Shown here: piece by piece, positions 403-16,776 of the stretch | How positions within the stretch are numbered: the stretch's first letter is position 1 | Layout: every line of letters starts with the position of its first letter | Assembly (NCBI RefSeq): GCF_000613905.1 | Contig: NZ_BAJW01000023.1 | Location: 1-46,967, forward strand | DNA: 46,967 bases | DNA from: Acetobacter persici JCM 25330 | GTDB taxonomy: Bacteria > Pseudomonadota > Alphaproteobacteria > Acetobacterales > Acetobacteraceae | Reading direction: 5' to 3' | The notes under the pieces: generated by a model | What the model saw: only the letters and a program-made list of their open reading frames with translations | Told to the model about the DNA's origin: nothing | The model's database searches: none | Program-made: the position numbers and the translations under genes

Positions 403-1532
403 ATGCGCGTTCTTTTCCCTTACATCGCACAGCCGCACCAAACCTTGCATTCTCTGCCTATTGCAATGGAAATTGCCAGCAGACACCCTGAGGCAGAAGT
501 CCACATTGCCTGCGCCACACAGGCGCATCTGGATTACGCGCAGTCCCTCGCCTCCTACTATCCGGAATCGCGCGCCAGCTTCGAGCTTCTGCACCTCCCG
601 AACCTGATCCGGGAGCGCGTTGAACGGCACGGGCACACCGTTTTTTCCCGCTTTGCGAGCCTTTTCTTCAACAAGAAATATTTCTCTACGTTTCAGGGCA
701 TCGTCGTCCCGGAGCGTACTTCACTCTATTTAAGGAAGCTTGGTGTCCGCCAGCCCCGCCTGATCTGGACCCGCCACGGGGCGGGTGACCGGGCCATTGG
801 CTTTGCGCGGGATGTCAAAAATTTTGACTACGTTCTGATGGCGGGCAAGAAGGTTGAGCAGCGCCTTCTGGCTCAGGGTGCCATTCGCCCCGGCCATTAT
901 CATACGGGTGTCTACGCGAAGTTCGACATGGTGCGCCGGATGCGCAGCACGAGCTCCCGCCTCTTTAATAACAACCGGCCGACCATTCTTTATAACCCGC
1001 ATTTTAATGCCCGCCTTTCGTCCTGGCCCAATATGGGGCTGAATATCCTGAGTCATTTTGCCAATCAGGATCGCTACAACCTTATCTTTGCCCCCCATTA
1101 CCGGCTGTTCGATAACCGGCGGACTGAGGCTGCTCAGCTAAAGCGCGCTTTTGGCGGCCACCCCCACATGATTGTCGATACCGGCAGCACCCGCAGCATT
1201 GATATGACCTATACCTCTGCTGCGGACCTCTATCTGGCGACGCCAGCTCACAGATTGCAGAATTTTTAATCCACCCCCGTCCGTGTGTTTTCCTGAACGC
1301 ACATGACGTTGCCTGGCAAGGGGATGAGAACTATCGGTTCTGGACTTTGGGCCCGGTTCTGAACCAGCTTGAGACGTTCTCGGAAGACATTGATGCCGCA
1401 TTTTCTTCACATCATGCTTTCGTAAATCTCCAAAAAGACTATATACGCGACACGTTCGATCTCACGGGAGACGAACCAACCGCGCCGGTAGGGGCCGACG
1501 CAATTGTTGATTTTCTTCGAATGGCCAGCTGA
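403..1532 (+). CDS. CDP-glycerol glycerophosphotransferase-like protein (one frame break)
   Basis: The protein of about 376 residues resembles the C-terminal catalytic region of the TagB/TarF family, which transfers glycerol phosphate or a similar group from a CDP-activated donor. Visible family features are ILYNPHFN near residue 195, FAPHYRLFD near 230, the stretch TGSTRSIDMTYTSAADLYLG, and then DASSQIAEFL, the usual signature where the donor pyrophosphate is held. The frame is broken at about 1237: CTGGCGAC should read CTGGGCGAC, and one added G restores YLGDASSQIAEFL and carries the frame to the TGA at 1530-1532. No wall teichoic acid exists in this kind of cell. The next gene starts inside the stop codon (TGATG), and the sphingolipid genes that follow suggest it decorates a lipid or capsule head group. 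The family assignment is fairly firm; the acceptor is inferred. Confidence 0.72.
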
Positions 1533-3307
1533 TGAACGTTTTAAATCCTGCATCTTCACCTTCTAACGAAGAGGCTCTGCAACCGGTTCCCACCGGTTCT
1601 GGTCAGCAGCGCCGTTATGGCGATTTTGCAACATTCCCCGAAGCGCTGGACTATGCGGCACAGGGTGAGGCTGGCTTCAATATCTATTCCGGCAAAGGCG
1701 TTCTGCTGGAAGCCCTGCCGTATCGCAAACTGCGTGAGCAGGCGATTGAAACCGGGCTGCGCCTTCTTGGAATGGGCCTGCAGCCGGGCGATCGCGTAGC
1801 GATTGTCGCGGAAAGCGATGGCGACTTTGCCCGTATCTTCTTTGGCTGCCAGTATGCTGGTCTGGTTGCAGCCCCCCTGCCCCTGCCCGTCGCCTTTGCC
1901 GGGAAAGAGACCTATCTGACCACGCTGCGCGGTATGATTACCAGCGCCGGGGCCAGCGCGGTGATTATTCCGCAGATTATTGAAGGCTGGACGGACGATA
2001 TCGTCAGCGGCATGGGACTGGCTTTTGCTGGCTCCCCCACTGAACTGATGGAACGCCCGGTGCCGGATATGGTTCTGCCAACCATCCATCCGGAAGCTCT
2101 GTCCTACCTTCAGTTCTCGTCCGGCAGTACCCGCTCCCCTATGGGTGTGTGCGTCAGCCAGCGTTCTGGCATGGCAAATGTGGCCGCCATCGCGCATGAT
2201 GGCCTGTGCGTGCATGAAACCGGCGACCGCTGCGTCTCCTGGCTCCCGCTTTATCATGACATGGGACTGGTCGGGTTCTTCCTGACCCCCATGACCTGCC
2301 AACTAACGGTTGATCTTCTCCCCACCCGTGAATTTGCCCGCAGGCCCCATGTCTGGCTGGATCTGATCAGCCGCAATCGCGGGACAATCGCTTACAGCCC
2401 GTCTTTCGGATACGAACTCTGCGCACGCCGCCCCGCCTCCGCCGAACTGGACCTGTCCTGCTGGCGTGTCGCCGGGATTGGCGGCGATATGATCCGTCCG
2501 CATATTCTCAAAGAATTTTCTGAGCGGTTTGAAGCTGTTGGTTTTAACCCCAAAGCATTTGTCGCCAGTTACGGCATGGCGGAAGCCACTCTGGCCATCA
2601 GCTTTGTGCCGCTTGATACTGGTATTGAAACCGATACGATTGATCTCCCGGCTCTGGAAAGCGAAGGGGTGGCGCGTGCGGCAACTGATCCTTCCACCCC
2701 CACCAGAACCTTTGTTGTCTGCGGCAGAGTTCTGCCCGGGCATGAGATGGAAGTGCGTGACCCGGAAGGACGTGTTCTGGAAGACCGCCAGACCGGTACG
2801 ATTTTTGTCCGTGGCCCGAGCCTGATGAATGGCTACTTCCGCAAGCCCGCCGATACGGCACAGGTGCTGGATCAGGATGGCTGGCTGAACACGGGTGACC
2901 TTGGTTACATGCTGAATGGTCAGATTGTGGTCACAGGCCGTGCCAAAGATCTGATTATCATCAATGGCCGGAATATCTGGCCGCAGGATCTGGAATGGTC
3001 AGCCGAAAGCCATATCCCGACCCTGCGCAGCCGCGATGTTGCCGTGTTCTCCATGGAAAAGGGAGACCATGAGGAAATTGTGGCGCTTATCCAGTGCCGC
3101 GCAACGTCACCGGAAGCACGTGAAGCCCTCCAGGCCGAAGCCACCAGCCTCTTCCGTCGCCTGCATGGCGTGGATGTTTCCGTGGTTCTTGTGCCGCCGC
3201 ATGCCCTGCCGCAAACCTCATCCGGTAAACTGACACGCGCCAAAGCCCGCAAGATGTTCCAGACCGGCATGTTTGAACCGCAACCTGAAGCAGCTTCTGC
3301 CTGCTAA
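1532..3307 (+). CDS. Fatty acyl-AMP ligase (AMP-binding enzyme)
   Basis: This 591-residue member of the adenylate-forming superfamily should activate a fatty acid with ATP and load it onto the acyl carrier protein encoded next door. Seen in order are the ATP-binding loop YLQFSSGSTRSPMG (about residues 190-203), WLPLYHDMGLVG, YGMAEATLA (about 349), the GDLGYMLNGQIVVTGRAKD hinge region, IIINGRNIWPQDLE, and the C-terminal lysine motif LPQTSSGKLTRAK. The IIINGRNIWPQDLE form is typical of long-chain acyl-AMP ligases that act with ACP rather than CoA. The ATG shares its A with the upstream stop codon. Equivalent ligases accompany spt and acp in alphaproteobacterial ceramide loci, where they supply the acyl chain. 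Confidence 0.88.
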   Translation: MNVLNPASSPSNEEALQPVPTGSGQQRRYGDFATFPEALDYAAQGEAGFNIYSGKGVLLEALPYRKLREQAIETGLRLLGMGLQPGDRVAIVAESDGDFARIFFGCQYAGLVAAPLPLPVAFAGKETYLTTLRGMITSAGASAVIIPQIIEGWTDDIVSGMGLAFAGSPTELMERPVPDMVLPTIHPEALSYLQFSSGSTRSPMGVCVSQRSGMANVAAIAHDGLCVHETGDRCVSWLPLYHDMGLVGFFLTPMTCQLTVDLLPTREFARRPHVWLDLISRNRGTIAYSPSFGYELCARRPASAELDLSCWRVAGIGGDMIRPHILKEFSERFEAVGFNPKAFVASYGMAEATLAISFVPLDTGIETDTIDLPALESEGVARAATDPSTPTRTFVVCGRVLPGHEMEVRDPEGRVLEDRQTGTIFVRGPSLMNGYFRKPADTAQVLDQDGWLNTGDLGYMLNGQIVVTGRAKDLIIINGRNIWPQDLEWSAESHIPTLRSRDVAVFSMEKGDHEEIVALIQCRATSPEAREALQAEATSLFRRLHGVDVSVVLVPPHALPQTSSGKLTRAKARKMFQTGMFEPQPEAASAC

Positions 3308-3330
3308 GGCGGGAAATTAAGGATTTTAAA

Positions 3331-3582
3331 ATGAGCGAAACTGTTGAAAGCGTTTCTGCGCTGATCATCCAGAAACTTCTCGCCAATCCGAAAGTGCCGC
3401 GCGACATCGACGGTAACTGCAAGATCATGGACGATCTGGCTTTTGATTCTCTGGCTGTCATGAATTTTGTCATGGAAGTGGAAGACAGCATGGATGTGTC
3501 CGTGCCGCTCGACAAGCTGGCCGATATCCGGACCATTAACGACCTTGCCGCCTGCGTGGTTGATCTGAAAAACAAAGGCTGA
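3331..3582 (+). CDS. Acyl carrier protein dedicated to sphingolipid synthesis
   Basis: An 83-residue acidic protein with the phosphopantetheine attachment site in LAFDSLAVMNF, serine near residue 37. It differs from the housekeeping AcpP, whose motif is normally GADSLDTVE, and it sits between an acyl-AMP ligase and serine palmitoyltransferase. It is therefore most likely the specialised carrier that presents the acyl chain to that synthase. An AAGGATTTTAAA stretch just before the ATG provides the ribosome binding site. The gap to the next gene is 6 bases, so all three are cotranscribed. Confidence 0.87.
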   Translation: MSETVESVSALIIQKLLANPKVPRDIDGNCKIMDDLAFDSLAVMNFVMEVEDSMDVSVPLDKLADIRTINDLAACVVDLKNKG

Positions 3583-3588
3583 GCGCGC

Positions 3589-4797
3589 ATGACGTCTCTT
3601 TTTTCAAAATTTGACGGCACGGCCGGAGCCCTTGGGTCCCTGGTAGAAGCAGGCGGACGCAACCCGTTTTCTGTCGTCATTGAAAAGCCGGTTTCTTCCA
3701 CGGTTGGCATTATCGAAGGCCGTGAGACCCTGCTTTTTGGCACAAACAACTATCTGGGGCTAAGCCAGTCCCCACGCGCCATCAAGGCTGCGCAGGATGC
3801 CGCCGCGACCTGTGGTGTCGGCACAACCGGCTCCCGCATTGCCAATGGCACGCAGTCCCTCCACCGGCAACTTGAACGTCGCATTGCCGACTATTTTGGC
3901 CGCCGTGACGCCATGGTCTTCTCCACCGGATATCAGGCCAATCTGGGCATGATCTCCACGCTGGCTGGCAAGGACGACTATCTGATTCTGGACGCAGACA
4001 GCCACGCCAGCATTTATGATGGCAGCCGCCTGAGCCCCGCACAGGTTATCCGCTTCCGTCATAATGATGCGGATGATCTCTATAAACGCCTGAAGCGTCT
4101 GGACGGTACGCCGGGTGCGAAGCTGATTGTTGTGGAAGGTATTTATTCCATGACCGGCAACGTCCCGCCGATTGCCGAGATGGTCGCCGTCAAGCGTGAA
4201 ACCGGAGCCTATCTGCTGGTGGATGAAGCCCACTCCTTCGGGGTGATGGGCGAACGCGGTCTGGGCATTGCAGAACAGGCCGGGGTGGAAGCGGATGTGG
4301 ACTTTATTGTCGGCACCTTCTCCAAGAGCCTCGGCACGGTTGGCGGATATTGCGTCTCCGATCATCCGGAACTGGAACTGGTCCGGCTGAACTGCCGCCC
4401 GTATATGTTCACCGCATCCCTGCCACCGGAAGTCATTGCCGCGACCTTGGCAGCGCTTGAAGATATGGCTGAACACCCGGAACTGCGCACGCAACTGAAG
4501 GACAACGCGGCCCGGCTACATGCCGGGTTCCACGGACTTGGCCTGAATGCCAGCAAGCAGGTCAGCCCGGTGATTGCCGTTACTCTGGAAGAAATCGGGC
4601 AGGCCATTGTGATGTGGAACCGCCTGCTGGACCTTGGGGTTTACGTCAATCTCAGCCTGCCGCCTGCTACACCGGACTCTCGTCCGCTGCTGCGCTGCTC
4701 TGTCATGGCAACACACACGGCTGAGCAGATTGATAAAGCAATTGAGATCTTTAAGCAGGCCGCTCTGGACGCCAAAGCACTTCCGGCAGCCGCCTAA
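3589..4797 (+). CDS. spt: Serine palmitoyltransferase (alpha-oxoamine synthase family)
   Basis: A 402-residue fold-type I PLP enzyme that condenses L-serine with a long-chain acyl thioester to 3-ketosphinganine, the first step of sphingolipid synthesis. Visible features are FGTNNYLGLSQSP (residues 48-60), the glycine-rich GVGTTGSRIANGTQ, DADSHASIYDG with the histidine that stacks on PLP, VVEGIYSMTGN, VDEAHSFGVMGERGLG, and the Schiff-base lysine in GTFSKSLGTVGG (about residue 245). The length matches the family. Relatives in this family are KBL, BioF, HemA and CqsA. The neighbouring ACP and acyl-AMP ligase and the absence of biotin or heme genes favour SPT. Its stop codon overlaps that of the convergent gene. 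Confidence 0.88.
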   Translation: MTSLFSKFDGTAGALGSLVEAGGRNPFSVVIEKPVSSTVGIIEGRETLLFGTNNYLGLSQSPRAIKAAQDAAATCGVGTTGSRIANGTQSLHRQLERRIADYFGRRDAMVFSTGYQANLGMISTLAGKDDYLILDADSHASIYDGSRLSPAQVIRFRHNDADDLYKRLKRLDGTPGAKLIVVEGIYSMTGNVPPIAEMVAVKRETGAYLLVDEAHSFGVMGERGLGIAEQAGVEADVDFIVGTFSKSLGTVGGYCVSDHPELELVRLNCRPYMFTASLPPEVIAATLAALEDMAEHPELRTQLKDNAARLHAGFHGLGLNASKQVSPVIAVTLEEIGQAIVMWNRLLDLGVYVNLSLPPATPDSRPLLRCSVMATHTAEQIDKAIEIFKQAALDAKALPAAA

Positions 4798-5780
4798 GAG
4801 CGTTTAAACGCCCCCCTGCGCCACAACCGCCAGAGCAAGGGCGGCGCGGCCAGCAGGGGGTGCTTTTCTGCAAAAGGTGTCAGTGGCACCCTGATCCCGC
4901 TGTGCCGCTCGATTTTCCACGCGGCATAGCGGGCACCGCCTGTAAAGGTATAAGCCGCCTTGATCAGCCGCAGGATGTTGAGCGGACGCCCCATTCTGCG
5001 CCGCACCTGCCATGCCTGCTCTTCCCGGAATTTCTGGGCGGAAGAGAGACGCGGCCGGACTTCCTCCCCATCCGTTTCGTACCCTAGTCCCGCAGCCTGC
5101 CAGCACGGCAGCAGCAGATCCCTGTATCGCTCCTGATAGCTGGCGACGATCCCGGCACCGCGGCCTGCCTTTTCTACCCGAAGCTCTGTCTGATAGGTCT
5201 GGCGATAAAGCGCATTCCAAAAATCCTCACGCTGCCCTTTTTCCGGCCCGAGAAAGGCTGTCCAACGGGCGGCGGTCACGGTGGCGCGCATGACGCAGCG
5301 GCGTAATGTCTGGGCCGCAGCGGCGTCCCGTTGCCAGACCAGCCGCACAGGCTGAGAAAACCGGGCCCAGACTGTTGTGTCCATAGCGCTGAAGCCGGTC
5401 AGTCTGCGGAACTGGGCGAGAGACAGAATGGCCACTTTGGCGCGTAACTGCCGCCCCTCAACAGTCAGTTCATGATATTCGACATTGGGGGGCAAAAGTG
5501 CATTCGCGAGGCAGGCCAGCCGCCCGCGTGGCCAGTCAGACTGTTTTTTCACAATCACATAAAAATCGAGCAGCGTATCATCCTGTATGCCACCCCGCAG
5601 GCCGGAGCCGTAGAACAGCACGCCGAGCGGCTCGGCCGTGTCGACCATCTGCTCTACAAAATCCAGAACGGCGGGGCTGACGCGCGTTGTCAGCTCACGC
5701 AGGATCTGTTCATCAAGGAACCGGACTGCGCTGGCCTGCTGGCCGGACAGAGGTTCTTCAGGACGCTGCTGCTTGGCCAT
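4794..5780 (-). CDS. TAM41-like nucleotidyltransferase, probable CDP-lipid synthase
   Basis: A 328-residue protein. Around residues 65-90 it reads VLFYGSGLRGGIQDDTLLDF followed by YVIVKKQSDW. This resembles the nucleotidyltransferase core of mitochondrial TAM41, the non-CdsA phosphatidate cytidylyltransferase (G-S-G then a D-F catalytic strand, then a tryptophan). Further along are NVEYHELTVEG, RAKVAILSLAQF and FSQPVRLVW, which match the layout after the TAM41 core; the C-terminal part is basic and may contact the membrane. The ATG at 5780 lies one base after the stop of the lipid kinase gene, so the two are coupled. My inference is that it makes a CDP-lipid from the kinase product. Low similarity makes another nucleotidyltransferase role possible. 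Confidence 0.55.
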   Translation of the reverse strand: MAKQQRPEEPLSGQQASAVRFLDEQILRELTTRVSPAVLDFVEQMVDTAEPLGVLFYGSGLRGGIQDDTLLDFYVIVKKQSDWPRGRLACLANALLPPNVEYHELTVEGRQLRAKVAILSLAQFRRLTGFSAMDTTVWARFSQPVRLVWQRDAAAAQTLRRCVMRATVTAARWTAFLGPEKGQREDFWNALYRQTYQTELRVEKAGRGAGIVASYQERYRDLLLPCWQAAGLGYETDGEEVRPRLSSAQKFREEQAWQVRRRMGRPLNILRLIKAAYTFTGGARYAAWKIERHSGIRVPLTPFAEKHPLLAAPPLLWRLWRRGAFKRS

Positions 5781-5781
5781 T

Positions 5782-6761
5782 TTATGCCTGTAGGAAAGAG
5801 AGAATCGGTCCTGCGGAAATTTCCAGACTATGTGCGGGGCCTGTTTCCAGAACCTCACCATCGAGCACAAAGGATTGCTCTGTGTTCAGCACAAGACACT
5901 GCACCGACCCGCTGACATAAGACGGATCGGCCTTAGCCATGCCGGGCTCCGCCCGCGCAGCAGACTCCAGAGTGCGCGCAGCAGCTTCTGGGGGTTGGCC
6001 GCGACGTCCAGATAGCTGATGCCCTCATCCGCCAACCCATCTGCTCTCCAGAAAGGCCAGAATCCGTGCGGCAGGCACTGCAAGCCGGTGCACAGGAACA
6101 GGAAGCGGTTGTGGGCCTCTGCGTCCCTTCCGTTCAGGCTTAACCCAACGGGCGTACCGTCCAGCCAGCTCTGCCGCAGACGGGGCGTGATAATCTGCCG
6201 CAGCGTTTCCGCCAGTGTGATGAATACGGCGGTATCATGCGCATAATTTTTAAGAATGGCAGGCGAGTGGGCAATTTCTATGCCGCGCGTAAAAGCCCCA
6301 AGACCGCCGAAAAAACCCAGAACCGCAGCACGGTCCTGCCCCGGCCATGAGACAACCAGCGGCTGACGCTGCTTGACGTCTGACACCAGACGGCCGGACT
6401 GAGCCCTGTCCTGAAGCCGTTGCAGGGCTTCCTCCCCCCGCAGGCCAAACCCCACATCTGCGGCAATCAGATTCGTATTGCCGGACGGCAGCACCGCAAT
6501 CATGGGTAATCTGTCTTTGGGGTAAGATGATGCGTAGAGCGCACTCAGCACATTGCCGACCGTGCCATCCCCTCCGTCAATCACCAGACACCCCACGTCC
6601 TGCCGCGCCAGATTTTCTATGACGTCATGCAGTGCGCCCTGAGAGTCCGGGGAAAAGAAGAGCGGCCCCAGGATGCGGCGGGCGCAGTCCAGATAACGAC
6701 CATCCGCCTTGAGATTGCGTCTGCTGCGGGAATTGTGAATCAAGGCGAAACGATCAGGCAC
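5782..6761 (-). CDS. DAGK-family lipid kinase, candidate ceramide/sphingoid kinase (one frame break)
   Basis: About 326 residues of the diacylglycerol/sphingosine kinase fold. The N-terminal ALIHNSRSRRN, the nucleotide-binding VIDGGDGTVGNVL (near residue 61) and VLPSGNTNLIAADVG (near 90) are the family hallmarks. The break is at about 5943: adding one G in AGCCCGGCATGG carries the frame on through a beta-rich C-terminus (QCLVLNTEQSFVLDGEV) to the TAA at 5782-5784, the usual end of these kinases. The start is GTG at 6761. The adjacent spt and TAM41-like genes suggest a sphingolipid substrate; bacterial ceramide kinases of this fold are known from Caulobacter. Diacylglycerol or undecaprenol as substrate cannot be excluded. 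Confidence 0.72.
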
Positions 6762-6800
6762 TCGGAAACTCTTGCTTTTGCAGATACGGTGCCAGCGCTT

Positions 6801-6828
6801 TTGCCCCGGCTTATGGCGGTGGTATAAT
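6801..6828 (+). promoter_or_regulatory. Probable sigma-70 promoter of the 6.8-12.8 kb operon
   Basis: TTGCCC at 6801-6806 and a perfect TATAAT at 6823-6828 are separated by 16 bases, in the spacer between the divergent lipid kinase and metallophosphoesterase genes. Transcription would begin near 6835. That leaves almost no leader for a start at 6843 and favours translation from 6891. Confidence 0.5.
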
Positions 6829-6890
6829 TAGAGTCAGCACACTTGTCACATACTGTCCTGTCAGGCCCCCTGCGCCGGAGACTTTCTTCC

Positions 6891-7790
6891 TTGCCCTCTT
6901 TTCAGATTGCGCACCTGTCCGACCCCCATCTGCCACTGGCGGAATACCCGGCTCTGGATGAAATTCGCTTCAAACGTCTCCTCAGCCTTCTGTCCTGGAC
7001 ATTAAAACGCCGCCATCTGCACAAGGCCGCCCCTCTGGCACGGGTGATGGACGATATCCGGCGGTTTCAACCGGAACTGGTCGCTCTGACGGGGGATCTC
7101 ACCAATCTTGGACTGCGTTCGGAATTCCGGCGCGCCCGACAATGGATGCAAGAGCAGACATTGCCCCCCACCCTGCTGGTGCCCGGCAACCATGATGCCC
7201 TGATCCGCCAGAACGCGGCCGGAAAAGCGGCTTTGTGGGCAGACTGGCTTAAAACCGGGGCGTCATTCCCGTCTCTGCTGGTCAAAGACCATATTGCCCT
7301 GATCGGGGTGAACTCCGCCGTGCCTACACGCCCCTTTTTTGCGTCCGGCAAAGTCGGGGCTGCGCAGGCTGAACGGCTCCGTGCGGTCCTTCTTAATGCA
7401 GGGCAGGACGGACTGTGCCGCGTCGTCTTGATTCATCACCCCCCGGTGGCCAATCTGGTCAGCCGTCGGAAGGGGCTGGACGATATGGACCTGTTACAGT
7501 CTGTTCTGCGCGATGCAGGCGCCGAACTGGTGCTGCATGGACACTCGCACCGCGCGACTCTCGCCTGCATTCCGCACACGGAAATTCCGGTTGTCGGCAC
7601 GACCTCCGCCTCGCATAGTGCGGGCAGCCCGGACACCGCAGCCGGATGGAACGCCATTGCCGTCCATCCGCAGGCCGGGCACTGGGCAATTACCGTTCTG
7701 CGGCGGGAACTTGGAACGGATGGCATCATGCGGGATGGCCCCACGCACACGTTCACACCCCATCGCCTTTCCGCATCAATCCGGCTATGA
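6891..7790 (+). CDS. Calcineurin-like metallophosphoesterase
   Basis: A 299-residue phosphoesterase with all five metal-ligand blocks of the family: HLSDPHL, ALTGDLTNLG, VPGNHDALI, VLIHHPP and LHGHSHRA. I chose the TTG at 6891 because GGAG lies ten bases upstream (6877-6880) and the protein then begins PSFQIAHLSDPHL. An in-frame TTG at 6843 has no ribosome binding site and lies only about eight bases after the expected transcription start. The stop codon overlaps the ATG of the LptF-like gene (ATGA). The substrate is unknown. In this operon a phospholipid or nucleotide-activated head-group intermediate is plausible, by analogy with LpxH-type hydrolases, but nothing in the sequence decides this. 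Confidence 0.78.
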   Translation: MPSFQIAHLSDPHLPLAEYPALDEIRFKRLLSLLSWTLKRRHLHKAAPLARVMDDIRRFQPELVALTGDLTNLGLRSEFRRARQWMQEQTLPPTLLVPGNHDALIRQNAAGKAALWADWLKTGASFPSLLVKDHIALIGVNSAVPTRPFFASGKVGAAQAERLRAVLLNAGQDGLCRVVLIHHPPVANLVSRRKGLDDMDLLQSVLRDAGAELVLHGHSHRATLACIPHTEIPVVGTTSASHSAGSPDTAAGWNAIAVHPQAGHWAITVLRRELGTDGIMRDGPTHTFTPHRLSASIRL

Positions 7791-9004
7791 CACCTTCCAT
7801 GCCGAACACGCCCCTGTTGCGCCGACTGCAAGCGTTCTTCACTCCAGGCACTCTGGACCGCTATCTGATTGCGCAGGTTATCCCGCCTTTTATGGTCGCC
7901 CTGTCCGTCGTGATGGCGGCTTTGCTGCTTGAGCGCCTGCTGGTGCTGTTCAACCTGCTGGCCGCGGGCAATAACCATCTGGGCGTTTTTGTTGAACTGC
8001 TGACAACACTCCTGCCGCATTATCTGGGGCTGGCCATTCCGGCGGCGCTCTGCGTGGGCGTGTTTTCCATCATCCGGCGCATGAGCCAGAATGAGGAAAT
8101 TGATGCCATCACCAGCAGCGGCATTTCTCTGACACGCATCACGCGGCCCTACATTCTGCTGGGCGCTGCGCTGAGTCTCGTGACCTTTCTGCTGTACGGT
8201 TTTGTGCAGCCACATGCGCGCTATGACTTCCGGGCGACATTTTATATGGCCAGCCACACCGGCTGGGCACCCCGGCTACAATCCAACATGTTTGCCAGCC
8301 CCTCCTCCACGCTGACCATTGTCGCGGACAAGGTGACGCAGGGCGGCTCCGATCTGCATGGCGTGTTTATCCGGGATACCTCGGACAATCAGGAACGCGA
8401 CATTACCGCCCGGCACGGCCATATCCGGCTAGCTTCAGACAGTTCCGCCGTGGAAATTGCGCTGGAGAACGGCACAATCCTGACCGACACCGGCAAAGGC
8501 GTGCCCACCCTGACGACTTTTGAACACGCCACACGCCTGCTGACCCGCGCCAACCACATCACTCCCTTCCGTGAACGTGGCGAGGACGAGCGGGAACTGA
8601 CATCCCCCGAACTTGTCAGCAGACTGCTGCATCAGGACCCGTCGATCTCCCGCCCGCATATGCGCTCGGAAGTGCATTTCCGGCTGGCCCGCAGCCTCAC
8701 CATTCCATTCATCCCGGCCCTCGCCGCCGCCCTTGCCATTATGCGCAAGCGGCAGCGTAGCAGCGCTGGTCTTGTACTGGCTTTTATCATCATGGTCGGG
8801 TTCGATCACATGCTCCAGTTCGGGCACAGTATGGTCGCCACCAAAAAAGCCTCTCTGCTGATTATCTGGGGGCCAGCCCTCATTTTTGTCGCGATGAGTT
8901 CTTTACTGCTGCTGCACAAATCCGGCACGTTCCAGACACTTAAAGCCCAGTGGATGAGCAAAAAACGCGCCAGACTGGCCGACAGTCAGAAGGCCGCGCC
9001 GTGA
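7787..9004 (+). CDS. lptF: LptF-like lipid export permease
   Basis: A 405-residue YjgP/YjgQ-family membrane protein. Three helices at about residues 28-52, 65-92 and 118-140 come first, then a periplasmic beta-jellyroll of about 140 residues (ADKVTQGGSDLHGVFIRDT, VEIALENGTILT), then three more helices beginning at SLTIPFIPALAAALAIM. This is the LptF/LptG architecture. In the lipopolysaccharide system such a pair works with the ATPase LptB to lift lipid toward the outer membrane. It does not sit in the usual lptFG-lptD-surA-pdxA context of alphaproteobacteria but inside a lipid-modification operon, so it is probably a second set for another lipid. The ATG at 7787 overlaps the upstream stop, and its own stop overlaps the next start. 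Confidence 0.83.
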   Translation: MTPSMPNTPLLRRLQAFFTPGTLDRYLIAQVIPPFMVALSVVMAALLLERLLVLFNLLAAGNNHLGVFVELLTTLLPHYLGLAIPAALCVGVFSIIRRMSQNEEIDAITSSGISLTRITRPYILLGAALSLVTFLLYGFVQPHARYDFRATFYMASHTGWAPRLQSNMFASPSSTLTIVADKVTQGGSDLHGVFIRDTSDNQERDITARHGHIRLASDSSAVEIALENGTILTDTGKGVPTLTTFEHATRLLTRANHITPFRERGEDERELTSPELVSRLLHQDPSISRPHMRSEVHFRLARSLTIPFIPALAAALAIMRKRQRSSAGLVLAFIIMVGFDHMLQFGHSMVATKKASLLIIWGPALIFVAMSSLLLLHKSGTFQTLKAQWMSKKRARLADSQKAAP

Positions 9005-10095
9005 AAACAAAATCGCACGCCCCAACCCATGTTCTGCTGCGCTATCTCTCTGGCGTGCTGTTCAACCGTGTTCTGTTCAGTTGCGCCATTCTGGTCGGGC
9101 TGATGGAAATTCTGGCTCTGCTTGAACAGACCACCCCCATCCTGCAGCGGCATCTGGGTATTTCTGGTATCCTGACCTATGCGGGGATGCGGCTGCCCTT
9201 CCTGATGGCAGGTGCTTTGCCGCTTAGCGTGCTGATTGGCGCGCTTGTCATGCTCTCCCAGATGACGCTCGCCAGCGAGATGGCCATCCTCCAGGCCTCC
9301 GGCCTTTCCATGTGGGGCCTGTATAAGCGGCTTCTGCCAGCCACGCTGCTGATTGGTGTGATGGGCGTGATGCTGGATGATCAGGTCACCCCCCGGTCAG
9401 AACAGGCTCTGGCGGCGTGGTGGAACCGGACGGACCCGCACCCGGAAAACGGTCATGCCTTCTGGTTCCATGAAGGCGGGCGCATTGGCCATGTGAAATA
9501 TGTTGCGGATGGCGGGAACATGCTCTCGGGGCTTGATCTCTATACCCGCACGCCAGACGGCATGCTGCAGGAAGCCCTGCATGCGGACCGCGCGGATTAT
9601 ACCCATGCGCATGGCTGGCAGTTGCGCACCATCCGCCGTGTTCAGGTTGATGGGGATAAGACCGCCAGACTCCCGGTGGAGGACGATACCTCATGGCAGA
9701 CCACGCTGCATCCGTGGGACTTTATCCGTCTTTCGGCTGAAAACCCGCCTCTGTCCTCCGGCACCATTATCGGCATGCTGCGCGGGCGGCTCCCGTCTGA
9801 TTCCAGTCCCGGCTTCCTTCAGGCTGGCCTGCTGGAACGCTTCCTGCGCCCGGCCGCCATGATGGTATTGTTGTTGCTTGCCATGCCGGTAATCTATATT
9901 CCACCCCGGACAGGCACACGAAGCTGGGTCCCGGTCTGGTGTCTCGGGGCTGGCCTGCTGTTTATTATCGCGCAAGGGCTGTTACGGGCCATGGGCAACG
10001 CCGGACTTCTGCCCCCACCTGTTGCGACCATCCCCGGGTTGATTATTTTCACTCTGGGGGCAGTCACCGCGCTCCTGAGGAACGAAGCAAAATGA
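9001..10095 (+). CDS. lptG: LptG-like lipid export permease
   Basis: A 364-residue partner of the preceding gene, with the same six-helix and periplasmic jellyroll plan. Helices are visible at VLFNRVLFSCAILVGLMEIL, LPFLMAGALPLSVLIGALVM and LLPATLLIGVMGVML; the periplasmic part contains HVKYVADGGNMLSGLDLYT; three C-terminal helices start at AAMMVLLLLAMPVIYIP. The start is the GTG at 9001, which overlaps the upstream TGA as GTGA. The gene ends in ATGA with the hydroxylase. F/G pairs are obligate partners of an LptB2-type ATPase. None is encoded in the window, so the pair may share the housekeeping LptB. Confidence 0.83.
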   Translation: MKTKSHAPTHVLLRYLSGVLFNRVLFSCAILVGLMEILALLEQTTPILQRHLGISGILTYAGMRLPFLMAGALPLSVLIGALVMLSQMTLASEMAILQASGLSMWGLYKRLLPATLLIGVMGVMLDDQVTPRSEQALAAWWNRTDPHPENGHAFWFHEGGRIGHVKYVADGGNMLSGLDLYTRTPDGMLQEALHADRADYTHAHGWQLRTIRRVQVDGDKTARLPVEDDTSWQTTLHPWDFIRLSAENPPLSSGTIIGMLRGRLPSDSSPGFLQAGLLERFLRPAAMMVLLLLAMPVIYIPPRTGTRSWVPVWCLGAGLLFIIAQGLLRAMGNAGLLPPPVATIPGLIIFTLGAVTALLRNEAK

Positions 10096-10895
10096 GCGGC
10101 ACTCTGAATAACGCGACCATCCGCACGGGCCGGAGCTTTGATCTTGGCAAGATGAACCTCCGCCAGTTGTGGATCGCTTATCTGACCTACCCGACCATTC
10201 TGTTATATTTCGCGCTGGTTATTGCCAGCGTTGCGGCGGCAACCTGGTTTTTTGCCGGGTGGGGGCCGACGCTGGTTTCCATTCTGGCCGTCATACTGGT
10301 GTATCCGCTGGCGTGGTACTTACTGCATCGCTACGTGCTGCACGGGCGCGTTCTCTACAAAATGAAATGGACAGCCTCCCTGTGGAAGCGCATCCATTTT
10401 GACCACCATCAGGACCCGCATCTGCTGGACGTTCTGTTTGGTGCGCCCGTCACCACCCTGCCGACCATTGCCGTCATCACCATACCCATCGGGTATCTGA
10501 TTGGCGGCTGGGGCGCTGCGGCCACGGCTTTTGGCACCGGCGTGGCCATCACCTGCATTTATGAATTCTTCCACTGCATCCAGCATCTGAACTACAAGCC
10601 GCGCTCCGCATGGATCCAGCGTATGAAGGCGCGCCACGTTCTGCACCACTTCCATGATGAAGACGGTAATTTTGGCATTACCAGCTTTGTGGTGGACCGC
10701 GTGTTTGGCAGCTACTATCTGGACGCCAAAGCGCGCCCGCGCAGCCCGACGGTGTTCAATCTGGGATATGACGTCAAAGAAGCGCAGCGTTTTCCGTGGG
10801 TGATGGATCTGACAGGCTCCCCCCCGCGGGACCGGCCCGATGGCGCCCGCCCGGAAGCCAAACTGATGCGCGATACGTCCCAGCACGCTGCATGA
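10092..10895 (+). CDS. Fatty acid hydroxylase / sterol desaturase family membrane oxygenase
   Basis: A 267-residue integral membrane di-iron enzyme. The eight-histidine pattern of the family is present: HRYVLHG (near residue 77), HFDHH (near 99), HCIQH (near 160) and HVLHHFHD (near 181), with hydrophobic helices between. Members hydroxylate or desaturate acyl chains; fungal and bacterial relatives act on the 2-position of ceramide acyl chains or the 4-position of the sphingoid base. Sphingolipids of acetic acid bacteria are known to carry 2-hydroxy acyl groups, which makes ceramide 2-hydroxylation the most attractive role here. That is inferred from context. Both ends overlap neighbouring genes by four bases. 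Confidence 0.83.
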   Translation: MSGTLNNATIRTGRSFDLGKMNLRQLWIAYLTYPTILLYFALVIASVAAATWFFAGWGPTLVSILAVILVYPLAWYLLHRYVLHGRVLYKMKWTASLWKRIHFDHHQDPHLLDVLFGAPVTTLPTIAVITIPIGYLIGGWGAAATAFGTGVAITCIYEFFHCIQHLNYKPRSAWIQRMKARHVLHHFHDEDGNFGITSFVVDRVFGSYYLDAKARPRSPTVFNLGYDVKEAQRFPWVMDLTGSPPRDRPDGARPEAKLMRDTSQHAA

Positions 10896-11680
10896 CAACG
10901 GCACACGTGCCTCTGTCCGCCCTTATTCTGGCAGGCACGCGCCCCGGTGCGCCGGACCCCATGGCGCAGGCCGCGGGTGTTTCCCACAAAGCCATTCTGC
11001 CCGTAGGCGGCACGCCGATGATCCTGCGGGTGATCTCGGCACTTCAGGCCACACCGGGTATCGGGCGGATTGTTGTCTGCATTGATAACCCGGCTGTACT
11101 GGCCGGGATAATCCCGCCAGACATTGATATTCTCCCCGCAAGCCCGCATGGCCCCAGCGCCAGTGTGCTGGCGGGGCTGACACAGATGGGCACGCCCCTG
11201 CTTGTCACGACGGCGGACAATGCCCTGCTCCGCCCTGCATGGATTAGCGAATTTCTGGACAAATGCGGCCCTGATACGGATGTCGCCGCGGCCGTAGCGC
11301 CTGAAGCTGCTGTGCTGCGGGATGTGCCCGGTACGCGCCGCACCTTTATCCGGCTGGCCGATATGGCGTTTTCCGGATGCAATCTGTTCCTCTTCCGCAC
11401 ACCCGCGTCCTTGGCGGTTGCGGAACTCTGGCAGCATGTTGAAAAAAACCGCAAACATCCGTTGCGGATAGCCTGGCTCCTTGGTCCCGGCGTTTTGCTG
11501 CGTGCCCTGTGCAAAAAACTCACACGCGCGGCCCTGTGCAACCGCATTGGGGCGCTAACGGGCACAACGGCTGAACTGATTCCGCTTTCAGACGGACGGG
11601 CCGCCGTGGATGTTGATAAACCGGCTGATCTGGACCTGACGGAAAAGCTGATTGCCGCGGACGCCAGAGCGAACCCCTGA
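10892..11680 (+). CDS. MobA-like NTP transferase
   Basis: A 262-residue protein of the glycosyltransferase-A-fold nucleotidyltransferases. The N-terminal LSALILAGTRPGAPDPMA is a divergent form of the nucleotide-binding loop, followed by SHKAILPVGGTPMILRV (near residues 31-47, with the catalytic lysine), TTADNALLRP (near 105, metal-binding aspartate) and VDVDKPADL near the end. It would activate a small molecule with CTP or another nucleotide. Together with the CDP-alcohol-type transferase at 403 this could form a head-group activation and transfer pair; a phosphoglycerate cytidylyltransferase of this class has been proposed in Caulobacter ceramide head-group synthesis. The start overlaps the hydroxylase stop. 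Confidence 0.68.
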   Translation: MTTAHVPLSALILAGTRPGAPDPMAQAAGVSHKAILPVGGTPMILRVISALQATPGIGRIVVCIDNPAVLAGIIPPDIDILPASPHGPSASVLAGLTQMGTPLLVTTADNALLRPAWISEFLDKCGPDTDVAAAVAPEAAVLRDVPGTRRTFIRLADMAFSGCNLFLFRTPASLAVAELWQHVEKNRKHPLRIAWLLGPGVLLRALCKKLTRAALCNRIGALTGTTAELIPLSDGRAAVDVDKPADLDLTEKLIAADARANP

Positions 11681-11686
11681 TCTGCC

Positions 11687-12772
11687 ATGCGCATTGCTTA
11701 CCTTATCAATTCGACCGAAGGCGGCGGGGCGGCCTTCCCGGTGCCTGCCATTACCCGCGTGCTGCGCAACGCAGGGCATGAGGTTGCTGTTTTTGCGCTG
11801 ACCCGGCGGGATGGCAGAGCCATCAAACCCATGCAGGATGCCGGGCTGGAGCTGCGGGTGCGTGAGGGCGGCCGGAAAGACCATCTGGCGGCCCTGCTCT
11901 GGCTGAAACGCCAGATGGACCTCTGGCAGCCCACGCATTTATGGACATCTCTGACCCGTGCGACTTTGCTGGGGCAGATCATCGGGCAGATGCGGGGCAT
12001 CCCGGTGGCAAGCTGGCAACATTCCGCGCGGCTCCGCCCCCCTAACGGCACCTTGCTCCGGCTGCGGCGCAACGCCTCCTGCCTCTGGGTCGGAGATTCG
12101 CAATACGTGACGGATATCACCCGGCAGCAACTCCACATCCCGGCGGACCGCCTGATGTGCTGGCCAATTTTCCATGCCCGCGCCGATGGCCCTCAGGCCC
12201 GCCCATGGCAACAGGGAGAGCCTGTGCGTCTTGGGTCTCTGGGCCGCCTGCATCCGGTAAAAGGCTTTGATACCCTCTGCCTTGCGCTGGCCCGCCTCCA
12301 GCAGGCCGGACACACTCCCCCTTTCCATCTGACACTGGCGGGCGAAGGGGAAGAACGCCCGGCGCTGGAAGCCCTTATCCGGCAGCATGGATTACAGAAC
12401 CACGTCTCCCTGCCCGGCTTTTGTGACCAGACAGGGCCGTTTCTGGCAGCGCAACACCTCTACCTTCAGCCCTCCCACTGGGAAGGATTCTGCATGGCGG
12501 CGCATGAGGCCATGCAGGCAGGCCTCCCGGTGATTGCCTCTGCGGTCGGGGAACTTACCCATTCCATCCAGAACGGCGTTACCGGCTGGACCGTCCCGCC
12601 GAAAGACCCGGATGCGCTGGCAACAGCCCTCGCAATTGCCCTGGCTCAGCCTGAGCGGCTGGCGGACATGGGTCAGGCCGGACGAACCTATGTGCTGACC
12701 CATTTTAGTGAGGAAGCTTTTACGCATGCCGGGGAAGCCGTCCTGCACCGATTTGCCGCGCTGACAGCCTGA
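11687..12772 (+). CDS. Family 4 glycosyltransferase
   Basis: A 361-residue GT-B enzyme. The N-terminal acceptor domain begins IAYLINSTEGGGAAFPVPAI. The donor domain carries LGRLHPVKGFDTL (near residue 184), LAGEGEERPALEALI, and the E-x7-E motif in SHWEGFCMAAHEAMQAG (near 266). The gene follows the nucleotidyltransferase by six bases and ends the operon. A sugar transfer onto the lipid made by this locus is the simplest reading; acetic acid bacteria do make glycosylated sphingolipids. Donor and acceptor cannot be told from the sequence. Confidence 0.82.
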   Translation: MRIAYLINSTEGGGAAFPVPAITRVLRNAGHEVAVFALTRRDGRAIKPMQDAGLELRVREGGRKDHLAALLWLKRQMDLWQPTHLWTSLTRATLLGQIIGQMRGIPVASWQHSARLRPPNGTLLRLRRNASCLWVGDSQYVTDITRQQLHIPADRLMCWPIFHARADGPQARPWQQGEPVRLGSLGRLHPVKGFDTLCLALARLQQAGHTPPFHLTLAGEGEERPALEALIRQHGLQNHVSLPGFCDQTGPFLAAQHLYLQPSHWEGFCMAAHEAMQAGLPVIASAVGELTHSIQNGVTGWTVPPKDPDALATALAIALAQPERLADMGQAGRTYVLTHFSEEAFTHAGEAVLHRFAALTA

Positions 12773-13608: not shown

Positions 13609-14955
13609 ATGACGTCTCCTTCCGCATCCCGTCCCGCCACTGCCGTCCTGCTTGCTGCCGGACTTGGCACCCGTATGAAATCCTCCCGTCCAAAGGCCAT
13701 GCAGCGTCTGGCAGGCAGGCCCATGCTGGCCCACCTGATAGCCAGTGCCGCAGAGGTTTTTGACCGGCTGGTCGTCGTCATAGGCCCGGAAATGGGCGAT
13801 GTGGCGGAACTCGCCGCACCCTACCCGGTTGTGATCCAGCATGAACGGCTGGGCACGGCACATGCCGCCTTGCAGGCCGAAGCCTATTTTGGCGATGGGG
13901 ATGTCGCTGTTCTGTATGCGGATAACCCGCTGATTTCCTCTGAAACGCTCACTCGCCTGCTGGAAGCGCGCCATGCGCCGGAAGTCGGGCTGGCCCTGCT
14001 GGCCATGCGCCCGGCAGAACCGGGCCGATACGGCCGCGTGATTGCGCAGGACGGGCTTGTAGAGCGGATTGTGGAATGGGCGGACGCCACGCCGGAAGAA
14101 CGGGCTGTGGATCTGTGCAACGCCGGGGTCCTGTGCGCGGACGCCTCCACCTTCCGCCGCTGGCTGCACAGCGTAAAAAATGACAACGCCAAGGGTGAAT
14201 TCTACCTGACCGATGTAGTGGATTGCGCTGTGGCCGATGGTGTGCGCGTCCATGCTGTGGAAGCGGCTGAAGATGAATTACGCGGTATCAATTCCCGCAT
14301 GGAACTGGCCGAGGCGGAAGCCGCTCTGCAAGCCCGCCTGCGCCAGAAGGCCATGGAAAACGGAGTAACGCTGGTTGCGCCGGAAACGGTGTTCTTCTGT
14401 GCCGACACAACACTTGCACCTGACGTTCTGGTAGAGCCCCATGTTGTCTTTGGTCCGGGTGTGACGGTGGAAAGCGGTGCCGAAATCCGGTCCTTCAGCC
14501 ATCTGGAAGGCTGCACCGTGCAGAAAGACGCCATTATTGGCCCGTATGCCCGCCTGCGTGCCGGCACCAGCATTGGGACCGGAGCCCGCGTCGGCAATTT
14601 TGTGGAAGTGAAAAACACCACACTGGGTGACGGCGCAAAAGCCAACCATCTGACCTATCTGGGGGATGCGTCCATCGGCGCACGTTCCAACATTGGCGCA
14701 GGGACCATCACCTGCAATTACGATGGCTTCTTCAAACACAAAACAACCATTGGGGACCGCGTTTTTGTAGGCTCCAACGCCATTCTGGTTGCCCCCGTCA
14801 GCATCGGCACCAATGCGCTGGTGGCGGCTGGCAGCGTGATTACCAAAGACGTGCCGGAGGACGCCATGGCCTTTGGCCGCCCCCGGCAGGAGAACAAGCC
14901 TGAACTGGGCAGACGCTTCAAGGAAACCCTGAAGGCCAGAAAGGAAAACGGCTGA
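13609..14955 (+). CDS. glmU: Bifunctional GlcN-1-P acetyltransferase / GlcNAc-1-P uridylyltransferase
   Basis: This 448-residue enzyme makes UDP-GlcNAc for peptidoglycan and lipid A. The N-terminal pyrophosphorylase domain shows LLAAGLGTRMKSSRPKAMQ (residues 12-30), GTAHAA and the YADNPL metal site. The C-terminal left-handed beta-helix has regular hexapeptides and the acetyltransferase block FVEVKNTTLGDGAKANHLTY with the catalytic histidine, then GAGTITCNYDG. The start at 13609 has AAAGGGA just before it, and an in-frame TTG at 13588 is less likely. The stop shares its last base with the ATG of glmS, giving tight coupling of the two hexosamine steps. Confidence 0.94.
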   Translation: MTSPSASRPATAVLLAAGLGTRMKSSRPKAMQRLAGRPMLAHLIASAAEVFDRLVVVIGPEMGDVAELAAPYPVVIQHERLGTAHAALQAEAYFGDGDVAVLYADNPLISSETLTRLLEARHAPEVGLALLAMRPAEPGRYGRVIAQDGLVERIVEWADATPEERAVDLCNAGVLCADASTFRRWLHSVKNDNAKGEFYLTDVVDCAVADGVRVHAVEAAEDELRGINSRMELAEAEAALQARLRQKAMENGVTLVAPETVFFCADTTLAPDVLVEPHVVFGPGVTVESGAEIRSFSHLEGCTVQKDAIIGPYARLRAGTSIGTGARVGNFVEVKNTTLGDGAKANHLTYLGDASIGARSNIGAGTITCNYDGFFKHKTTIGDRVFVGSNAILVAPVSIGTNALVAAGSVITKDVPEDAMAFGRPRQENKPELGRRFKETLKARKENG

Positions 14956-16776
14956 TGTGTGGCATATGCGGCGTTGTCGGCCTGCGACACGCAACCCCGA
15001 TTGTGTTTGAAGGTCTGCGCCGGCTGGAATATCGGGGCTATGACTCCGCAGGGATCGCAACGCTGGTGGATGGACGGGTTGAACGCCGCCGGGCAGCGGG
15101 CAAGCTGGATAATCTGGGCCGCCTGCTGGAAGACAATCCGCTGGCGGGTACCACCGGCATCGGCCACACGCGCTGGGCGACACACGGCGCACCCACAGCC
15201 TGCAACGCGCATCCGCACGGCACGGAACGCGTCGCCATTGTGCATAATGGCATTATCGAAAATTTCGAGACGCTGCGGCGTGAGCTTGAAGCCGTCGGCC
15301 AGGTTTTCCAGACGGAAACGGACAGCGAAACCATTGCCCTGATGGTGGATTTTTATCTCACGCAGGGTTACGCGCCGAGAGAAGCGGCCCTTAACACGTT
15401 AAAACGCCTTGAAGGCGCGTATGCCGTGGCCATGATTTTTGCGGGCCATGAAGGCTCATGATCGGGGCCTGCCATAGTGCCCCGCTGGCTGTCGGTTATG
15501 GCGACGGGGAAATGTTCCTGGGTTCTGACTCCCTCGCCCTAGCCCCGCTGACCCGCCGCATCACCTACATGGAAGACGGAGATTGCGTGGTGATCACCCC
15601 GTCCGGGGCTGAGTTCATCACCTTTGATGGCACGCCCGTCACCCGCAAGGAGCAGACGACGGCACTGGCCGCAGGCTCCATCGGGAAAGATGCTACCGCC
15701 ATTATATGGAAAAAGAGCTGCATGAGCATCCGCTGGTAATCGGCCAGACGCTCCAGCGCATGGTGGACCCGGCCAGCCGCCGCGTCATGCTGCCAGAAAT
15801 GCCGTTTGATCTGGCCTCCGTGCCCCGTGCCGTCATTACGGCCTGTGGTTCAGCGTTTTATGCGGGCATGATTGGCCGCTACTGGCTGGAAGACATTGCC
15901 CGCCTGCCGGTGGATATCGATGTCGCCAGTGAGATGCGCTACCGCAATCCGCCGCTGACGGCAGGCTCCCTCGGCCTGCTGATCTCCCAGTCCGGTGAGA
16001 CAGCGGATACGCTGGCCGCTCTGCGCAGCCTGCGGGAAAAAGCTGTCCATATTCTCTCTGTGCTCAATGTGGAGCACAGCACCATGGCGCGTGAGAGCGA
16101 TGTTGTGCTGGGCACTGTGGCCGGGCCGGAGATATCCGTCGCCTCCACCAAAGCCTTTACAGCCCAGCTTACCGTTCTGGCCTGCCTGAGCATCGCCGCT
16201 GCACGGGCCCGTGGCACGCTGGATGAAGCCGGGGAAGACGCTCTGGTTTCCGCCCTGCTGGATCTGCCAAGCCGTGCCGCGGAAGTGTTCACGCAAGGCC
16301 CCGCAATCCGCCGCATGGCACAGATTGTCGTGGAAGCGCGGGACGTGCTTTATCTGGGCCGTGGCAGCATGTTCCCCGTCGCGATGGAAGGGGCTCTGAA
16401 GCTCAAGGAAATCACCTATATCCATGCGGAAGCCTACGCGGCTGGCGAGATGAAGCACGGGCCGATTTCCCTGATTGACCGCACTGTGCCGATTGTTGCC
16501 AGCGCCCCCTACACGCCGCTCTTTGATAAGACGCTCTCCAACCTCCAGGAGGCGAAAGCACGCGGTGGTCGTCTGCTGGTCTTTACCGATACAAAAGGCG
16601 CGGACCGTGTTTCCGCTATTGCGGAAGACATGGTCATGCTGCCTCATGTGCATGATTTTGTAGCCCCCATCCTGCAAACCATTCCTGTGCAGATGCTGGC
16701 CTATGAGGTTGCCGTGCTGAAAGGCACGGACGTGGACCAGCCACGGAACCTCGCAAAGTCGGTCACAGTGGAATAA
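14955..16776 (+). CDS. glmS: Glutamine-fructose-6-phosphate aminotransferase (two frame breaks)
   Basis: Repaired, the protein has about 607 residues, normal for GlmS, which makes glucosamine-6-phosphate from fructose-6-phosphate and glutamine. The N-terminal nucleophile cysteine (MCGICGVVG), the glutaminase loop GHTRWATHGAP and VHNGIIEN are intact. Two SIS domains follow, with CGSAFYAG, SQSGETADTLAAL, GRGSMFPVAMEGALKLKE, EMKHGPISL and the C-terminal PRNLAKSVTVE. Frame breaks occur at about 15454 (GAAGGCTC, needs one more G) and about 15692 (GATGCTAC, needs one more G to read DGYRHYMEKE). GlmS is essential for wall synthesis, so the breaks are probably sequencing errors. No glmS ribozyme is expected or seen. 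Confidence 0.92.

Follow-up and report, generated by a model that had tools for sequence, protein, structure and literature searches.

Gene content and conservation of the locus

Twelve genes occupy positions 403..12772 of the window, by which we mean the whole stretch of 46,967 nucleotides analysed from Acetobacter persici JCM 25330, and sequence-level annotation of the window confirmed that all twelve genes reported by the first-pass annotation are real. A TagF-like GT-B protein (403..1531; plus strand, as are all others unless stated) is followed by an AasR-like fatty acyl-AMP ligase/acyl-ACP synthetase (FAAL; 1532..3307; NF006624, 887.6 bits), an AcpR-like acyl carrier protein (ACP; 3331..3582; PF00550, DSL motif) and a serine palmitoyltransferase (SPT; 3589..4797), which passed the NF047599 cut-off of 500 with 622.8 bits. 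The minus strand carries a TAM41-like nucleotidyltransferase (4794..5780), predicted to make CDP-ceramide, and a DAGK-type lipid kinase (5785..6761; PF00781, GGDGT motif), predicted to be a ceramide kinase. Downstream lie a calcineurin-like phosphoesterase (6891..7790; PF00149), the LptF and LptG paralogues LptF2 (7799..9004) and LptG2 (9001..10095), both with PF03739, a fatty acid hydroxylase (10092..10895) with predicted action on the N-acyl chain, a MobA/CofC-like nucleotidyltransferase (10892..11680; PF12804) and a GT4 glycosyltransferase (11687..12772; PF00534).

The ten genes from FAAL to the MobA/CofC-like gene, which closes the conserved block, are complete and collinear in 60 of 66 acetic-acid-bacterial loci, a subset, sorted by record title, of 80 loci that were themselves the best 80 of 394 SPT matches. 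FAAL, ACP and SPT with an adjoining TAM41-like gene and lipid kinase likewise recur in 60/66, and in G117 the block is still intact where it is located away from SPT. The GT4 gene is loosely linked, being found in only 26/66 loci. The assignment of the locus to sphingolipid synthesis, head-group formation and export stands, given its collinearity with the Caulobacter anionic-lipid cluster, and the glycosylated ceramide also envisaged was dropped as the common product in view of the GT4 count. Inositol phosphoceramide was rejected for the window, among whose called genes an inositol-phosphate-synthase-like gene is absent. In G100 and G068, as judged from sequence starts, an inositol-phosphate-synthase-like gene accompanies nucleotidyltransferase and CDP-alcohol-transferase-like genes in the stretch that holds SPT.

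GT-B, hydroxylase and transport proteins

The gene at 403 had been read as a CDP-alcohol transferase, a candidate now rejected because the fold of its model is GT-B; the gene, annotated as TagF-like, is split by a frame change. In the draft sequence its tblastn pieces (403-1266 and 1206-1529) fall in different frames; full-length single-frame matches in 46 of the 80 loci indicate a gene that is whole in relatives. In the fold search the TagF match was tied with UDP-GlcNAc 2-epimerases, and a profile search of the GT-B alignment against PDB sequences gave no helpful relative (best E 0.021). The fatty acid hydroxylase contains a PF04116 domain, and its PDB matches were to yeast SCS7 only and weak (E 0.01 and 0.023). 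LptF2 and LptG2 score below the housekeeping equivalog cut-offs (189 bits against 230 for TIGR04407; 191.9 against 240 for TIGR04408) and represent a second pair, another LptF-family gene, 25% identical, being located at G000:C194.

Head-group genes

The protein encoded at 4794..5780 matched 0 Pfam families up to E 10 and was for that reason filed as TAM41-like only. Its AlphaFold model (pLDDT 89.8) had Tam41 as the top fold match upon structure comparison, and a profile search of its alignment against PDB sequences yielded no helpful relative (best E 0.17). Ceramide-1-phosphate is predicted as its substrate, given that the neighbouring gene is a lipid kinase and the locus one for sphingolipids. 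The kinase match is spread over two frames, with a frame change near 5907-5991, and its PDB search returned YegS only (E 0.0064).

Using CpgA, CpgD and CerR queries taken from loci G102, G211 and L106 and named by position and family hits, we found the CpgA (CDP-alcohol phosphotransferase) type in 0/66 loci and, among 120 family genomes sampled from a larger set, in 3, with G000 not among the three. CpgA in acetic acid bacteria was rejected on the family-genome search. A CpgD-like cytidylyltransferase was detected at E <= 1e-15 in 16/120 genomes, strongly in 3, and in none of the 27 genomes holding both SDR and SPT. Since neither type was found here, a head group simpler than CPG2 is predicted. 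The CofC-like gene is kept in 61/66 loci; the predicted simpler head group leaves this retention unexplained, the Caulobacter counterpart being needed for CPG2 according to the excerpted text of PMC11324152.

Ceramide synthase and a probable ketosphinganine reductase

Neither CerS nor, between FAAL and ACP, CerR was found in any of the 66 loci. A CerS homologue is encoded outside the window (G000:C215:17077-18192), paired with a classical SDR. For CerR, a search of G000 in which each of the 8 first-look candidates was scored gave no match at E <= 1e-15. The earlier supposition that the pathway is split over the chromosome is thus upheld for CerS, whereas CerR looks replaced rather than moved.

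Wherever a strong SDR match occurs (5.3e-58 or better, the next being 1.6e-39, with ten rows below this gap examined), the SDR adjoins CerS, 108-584 bp apart, in 30/30 genomes. Across 36 genomes with SPT (E <= 1e-100; CerS 1e-20; CerR 1e-15), 27 have the SDR without CerR, 8 CerR without the SDR, none both and one neither (Fisher p = 3e-7, overstated if the split is a single evolutionary switch). This count uses one row per genome, with the second CerS row of G102 left out, and sets aside 15 of 25 CerR rows, the weaker ones (2.4e-19 to 8.1e-16, one in G042). Up to 22 candidates per genome were scored in the SDR search and 20 in the CerR search, and a weak or second copy may therefore have escaped notice, most easily in the class search, where up to 9 were scored.

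All 36 genomes contain a CerS match, and the listed CerS is the SDR-linked one in 27. The SDR-linked CerS proteins form their own clade (support 100/100 in a 30-sequence tree and 100/99 in a 40-sequence tree, both hand-picked from fetched loci). A second oxoamine synthase (AOS2), the SDR and CerS are contiguous in G056, G010 and G105, and in G056 this trio adjoins the head-group block. The SDR itself carries nucleotide-binding and Tyr-x-x-x-Lys motifs without a hydrophobic leader. From these arrangements we infer that the SDR beside CerS is probably the ketosphinganine reductase.

Several observations count against this assignment. SDRs constitute a large, promiscuous superfamily, with some match at E <= 1e-18 in 92/120 genomes, and some Sphingomonadales encode SDR homologues that are 55-56% identical. 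G021 has SPT and CerS with neither a strong SDR nor CerR, and a weaker SDR match on the same contig; the SDR genome G042 shows a weak CerR-type match (7.2e-16).

Proposed pathway and alternative explanations

With moderate confidence, we read the locus as the acetic-acid-bacterial version of the Caulobacter locus, which would provide the front end, head group and predicted export of a likely anionic and likely hydroxylated ceramide, with CerS elsewhere and the CerR step likely taken by the SDR beside it. In this scheme, AasR and AcpR would load the acyl chain and Spt would form 3-ketosphinganine in the cytoplasm, where the SDR would reduce the ketone before or after N-acylation by CerS; the hydroxylase may modify the N-acyl chain. 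The kinase would yield ceramide-1-phosphate, from which the TAM41-like enzyme and CTP would give CDP-ceramide, the CofC-like enzyme and phosphoesterase may help to finish a phosphoglycerate-type head group simpler than CPG2, and LptF2 and LptG2 would hand the lipid on towards the outer membrane. The chance is somewhat better than even that the pathway is chimeric, Spt, kinase, TAM41-like activator and LptF2/G2 stemming from a Caulobacter-type locus, and CerS and a cytoplasmic SDR-type reductase from the AOS2-SDR-CerS operon type that survives intact in relatives. Periplasmic CerR would have been discarded, so that the ketone would be reduced inside the cell in a eukaryote-like way, and a pared-down head group would be built on CDP-activated ceramide.

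The reductase could instead be a distant NDUFA9/epimerase-type protein, such as GOX1849 of Gluconobacter oxydans, leaving the SDR another role. The excerpted text of PMC9386255 lists GOX1849 as epi, mentions good homologues and describes CerR-type proteins as frequently unlinked in other lineages; however, both the lack of a CerR match among the candidates scored in G000 and the adjacency of the SDR to CerS, and in three genomes to an oxoamine synthase, make this explanation unlikely. We see a slim chance that CerS and the SDR serve a different pathway, for an amino-ketone or a second sphingoid lipid, with ceramide N-acylated by another enzyme. In G005, G088 and G016, CerS-like genes do have AOS2 and PKS-like neighbours, and the AOS2 proteins of G056 and G010 score highest against BioF, below the cut-off, but a CerS match accompanies every SPT genome, is SDR-linked in most and adjoins the head-group block in G056 together with its SDR, and PMC9386255, as excerpted, names a CerS homologue for Gluconobacter.

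As to the head group, the TagF-like GT-B protein and the CofC-like enzyme might replace CpgA/CpgD and add a second unit, giving a product no simpler than CPG2. TagF is a CDP-glycerol-using polymerase, and the broad retention of the CofC-like gene would fit; the GT-B gene, however, is found in only 46/66 loci, although some of the 20 others end just upstream, and the epimerase tie weakens the TagF match, so we hold this possibility doubtful and retain the simpler head group.

The place and timing of bacterial ceramide reduction are disputed, and the CerR of Caulobacter resides in the periplasm, a compartment lacking free NADH (PMC11087976, as excerpted). A clade that has seemingly swapped CerR for a predicted cytoplasmic SDR offers a natural test of the two-step order, singles out one candidate reductase gene in tractable industrial bacteria and makes CDP-ceramide a predicted intermediate worth looking for.

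Comparison with known systems

The core enzymes are stated to occur in all sphingolipid-making bacteria (PMC11087976, excerpted text). In Caulobacter crescentus, anionic ceramide phosphoglycerate lipids depend on the genes of the phosphosphingolipid cluster, and CpgA and CpgD, along with the CofC-like counterpart, are needed for CPG2 (PMC11324152, as excerpted). Likened by gene order, FAAL, ACP, SPT, TAM41-like gene, kinase, phosphoesterase, LptF2, LptG2 and CofC-like gene are collinear between the window and the CPG/CPG2 cluster CC_1168-CC_1152 as given there, whereas the window's locus is without CerR, CerS, CpgA and CpgD, has an extra fatty acid hydroxylase, and has CerS elsewhere with the SDR. 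Loci L105, L106, L108 and L110 carry the same gene frame plus CerR, CpgA and CerS, as in the Caulobacter order. By gene order, then, the core locus appears as a variant of the published Caulobacter kind and is less new than first thought; the new part is the CerS-SDR arrangement outside the window.

Similar comparisons extend to individual enzymes. The TAM41-like protein is 12-16% identical to the Tam41 CDP-DAG synthase, and differs in its setting, a sphingolipid locus where its gene adjoins that of a lipid kinase. Likened by family and motifs, the acetic-acid-bacterial SDR shares the SDR family and its nucleotide-binding and YxxxK motifs with Tsc10/FVT1 and with Bacteroides BT_0972, which has ketosphinganine reductase activity (PMC9278070, as excerpted); unlike these, it is linked to a bacterial CerS, and its activity is a prediction. 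Among the papers listed in literature searches, titles and abstract openings pointed to PMC9386255 alone as dealing with acetic-acid-bacterial sphingolipid genes; its excerpted text gives the Gluconobacter oxydans set as GOX2058-2056, GOX2417 (CerS homologue) and GOX1849 (epi, reductase). That set and the present proposal agree in keeping FAAL, ACP and SPT together with CerS unlinked, but differ in the reductase, an epimerase-type protein being named for Gluconobacter and the SDR beside CerS being proposed here.

Conserved block and assembly

All twelve genes named for the sphingolipid locus (403..12772) in the first-pass annotation were found in the window, which is one complete contig of a 236-contig draft assembly and whose serine palmitoyltransferase (SPT) is 99% identical to that of A. 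orleanensis and 98% to that of A. malorum. Across 66 named acetic-acid-bacterial loci (Acetobacter, Komagataeibacter, Gluconacetobacter, Novacetimonas, Gluconobacter, Commensalibacter and Saccharibacter, among the best 80 of 394 SPT matches), the ten genes from the fatty acyl-AMP ligase (FAAL) to the MobA-like gene form a complete block of single order in 60; the co-occurrence in relatives proposed for all twelve genes holds for this block, to which not all twelve belong. One of the six incomplete loci (L059) lacks FAAL alone, and five lack the post-SPT part within the stretch examined. In G117, a genome of the same genus, the post-SPT part is intact on a separate contig from SPT, and therefore this part moves as a unit.

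Frame changes affect the first gene (GT-B, 403-1531) and the kinase (5785-6761). Because both are whole in relatives and the downstream glmS (14955-16776) is likewise spread across several frames, these splits, together with that of an oxoamine-synthase-like gene elsewhere in the genome (C198:20989-22048), are probably draft or indel errors of the assembly. Many draft Acetobacter contigs (upstream ends of L041-L058 and the window) stop just upstream of the locus, which suggests a repeat there.

A dehydrogenase beside ceramide synthase

Ceramide synthase (CerS) matches (query from L118) occur in 49 of 120 family genomes, including all 36 SPT genomes. The N-acyltransferase and reductase noted as missing from the locus were sought elsewhere in the A. 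persici genome: the former was located outside the window, as CerS at C215:17077-18192, and the latter returned no match as the epimerase-type reductase CerR at E <= 1e-15 (query from L106), this genome not being among the 23 positives of the 120, ten of them strong.

In each of the nine initial CerS neighbourhoods, all taken from CerR-lacking genomes, a short-chain dehydrogenase-type gene (SDR) lies divergently next to CerS, and strong SDR matches in 30 genomes of the family search have CerS 108-584 bp away in every case. Among the 36 SPT genomes, 27 carry the SDR without strong CerR, eight CerR without the SDR, none both and one (G021) neither (Fisher p 3e-7, the relatives being non-independent). 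Furthermore, CerS lies within 30 kb of SPT in 0/27 SDR genomes, compared with 7/9 remaining SPT genomes. A class sample of 289 genomes yielded CerS in 40 and SDR (E <= 1e-36) in 14, the two side by side only in the four Acetobacteraceae, by listed coordinates and with the best nine or fewer SDR candidates per genome scored. The best 120 of 400 protein matches include SDR homologues from Komagataeibacter, Novacetimonas, Gluconacetobacter, Acetobacter, Gluconobacter and Acidisoma, as well as four Sphingomonadales entries at 55-56% identity. The SDR bears TGxxxGxG and Tyr-xxx-Lys motifs; its N-terminus falls at or close to the Rossmann fold, and by hydropathy no hydrophobic leader precedes it.

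For Gluconobacter, the published set consists of GOX2058-2056 together with an N-acyltransferase, GOX2417, and a reductase, GOX1849 (PMC9386255). Among titles and abstract openings, in a search mostly of non-subscription papers, no proposal of the SDR beside CerS as the acetic-acid-bacterial reductase was found. Since a glucokinase-like gene, so labelled from sequence, follows the SDR in several loci, and GOX2419 is presumably glucokinase, the SDR may be GOX2418.

Possible alternative front ends and head groups

In G056, G010 and G105, a second oxoamine synthase gene (AOS2), the SDR and CerS stand in this order with no intervening gene. These AOS2 proteins share 30-36% identity with the SPTs compared, and those of G056 and G010 fall under all listed cut-offs, with BioF as top score. 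At L174 of G056 the trio adjoins TAM41-like, kinase, LptF, LptG, hydroxylase and MobA-like genes, and stands in place of FAAL-ACP-SPT, an apparent swap of the ceramide front end. In a 40-sequence tree, all 14 SDR-linked CerS cluster together (support 100/99), separate from CPG-locus CerS and PKS-linked relatives; a 30-sequence tree gives the split at 100/100.

Elsewhere, in three loci (L198, L199 and L200, in G005, G088 and G016), a PKS-like gene (a reading of sequence), AOS2 and a CerS-like acyltransferase are consecutive, and one more conserved gene comes after them; the set may serve to make polyketide-based sphingoid-like lipids. The SPT stretches of L157 and L162 (G100 and G068) contain genes read as inositol-phosphate-synthase-like, nucleotidyltransferase-like and CDP-alcohol-transferase-like, which suggests that other Acetobacteraceae make a head group of inositol type. 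Additionally, in L063, L084, L096, L105 and L174 the TagF-like GT-B gene has a gene read as Wzx-type-flippase-like either immediately upstream or close by.

Proposed mechanism and comparison with the Caulobacter cluster

Alongside the observed gene content, order, linkage, SDR/CerR exclusion and folds, a mechanism can be proposed in which the SDR would reduce 3-ketosphinganine or ketoceramide in the cytoplasm, an activity ascribed to the SDR BT_0972 of Bacteroides (PMC9278070). Hydroxylation by the SCS7-like enzyme, CDP-ceramide formation and lipid transfer via LptF2/G2 are the further predicted steps.

Earlier work already describes the Caulobacter cluster, ceramide kinase CpgB, cytidylyltransferase CpgD and the LptF2/G2 proposal (PMC11324152; PMC12275187), eleven genes being needed in Caulobacter to form phosphosphingolipids (PMC11324152). 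More distant loci, from a Caulobacteraceae MAG (L106), Oleisolibacter albus (L105) and Methylopila (L108 and L110), share the gene frame of the window and add CpgA, CerS and a gene whose sequence reads as HIT-like, with CerR additionally in L105 and L106; their order is that published for Caulobacter (PMC11324152). Relative to this Caulobacter-type locus, that of the window is a shortened version.
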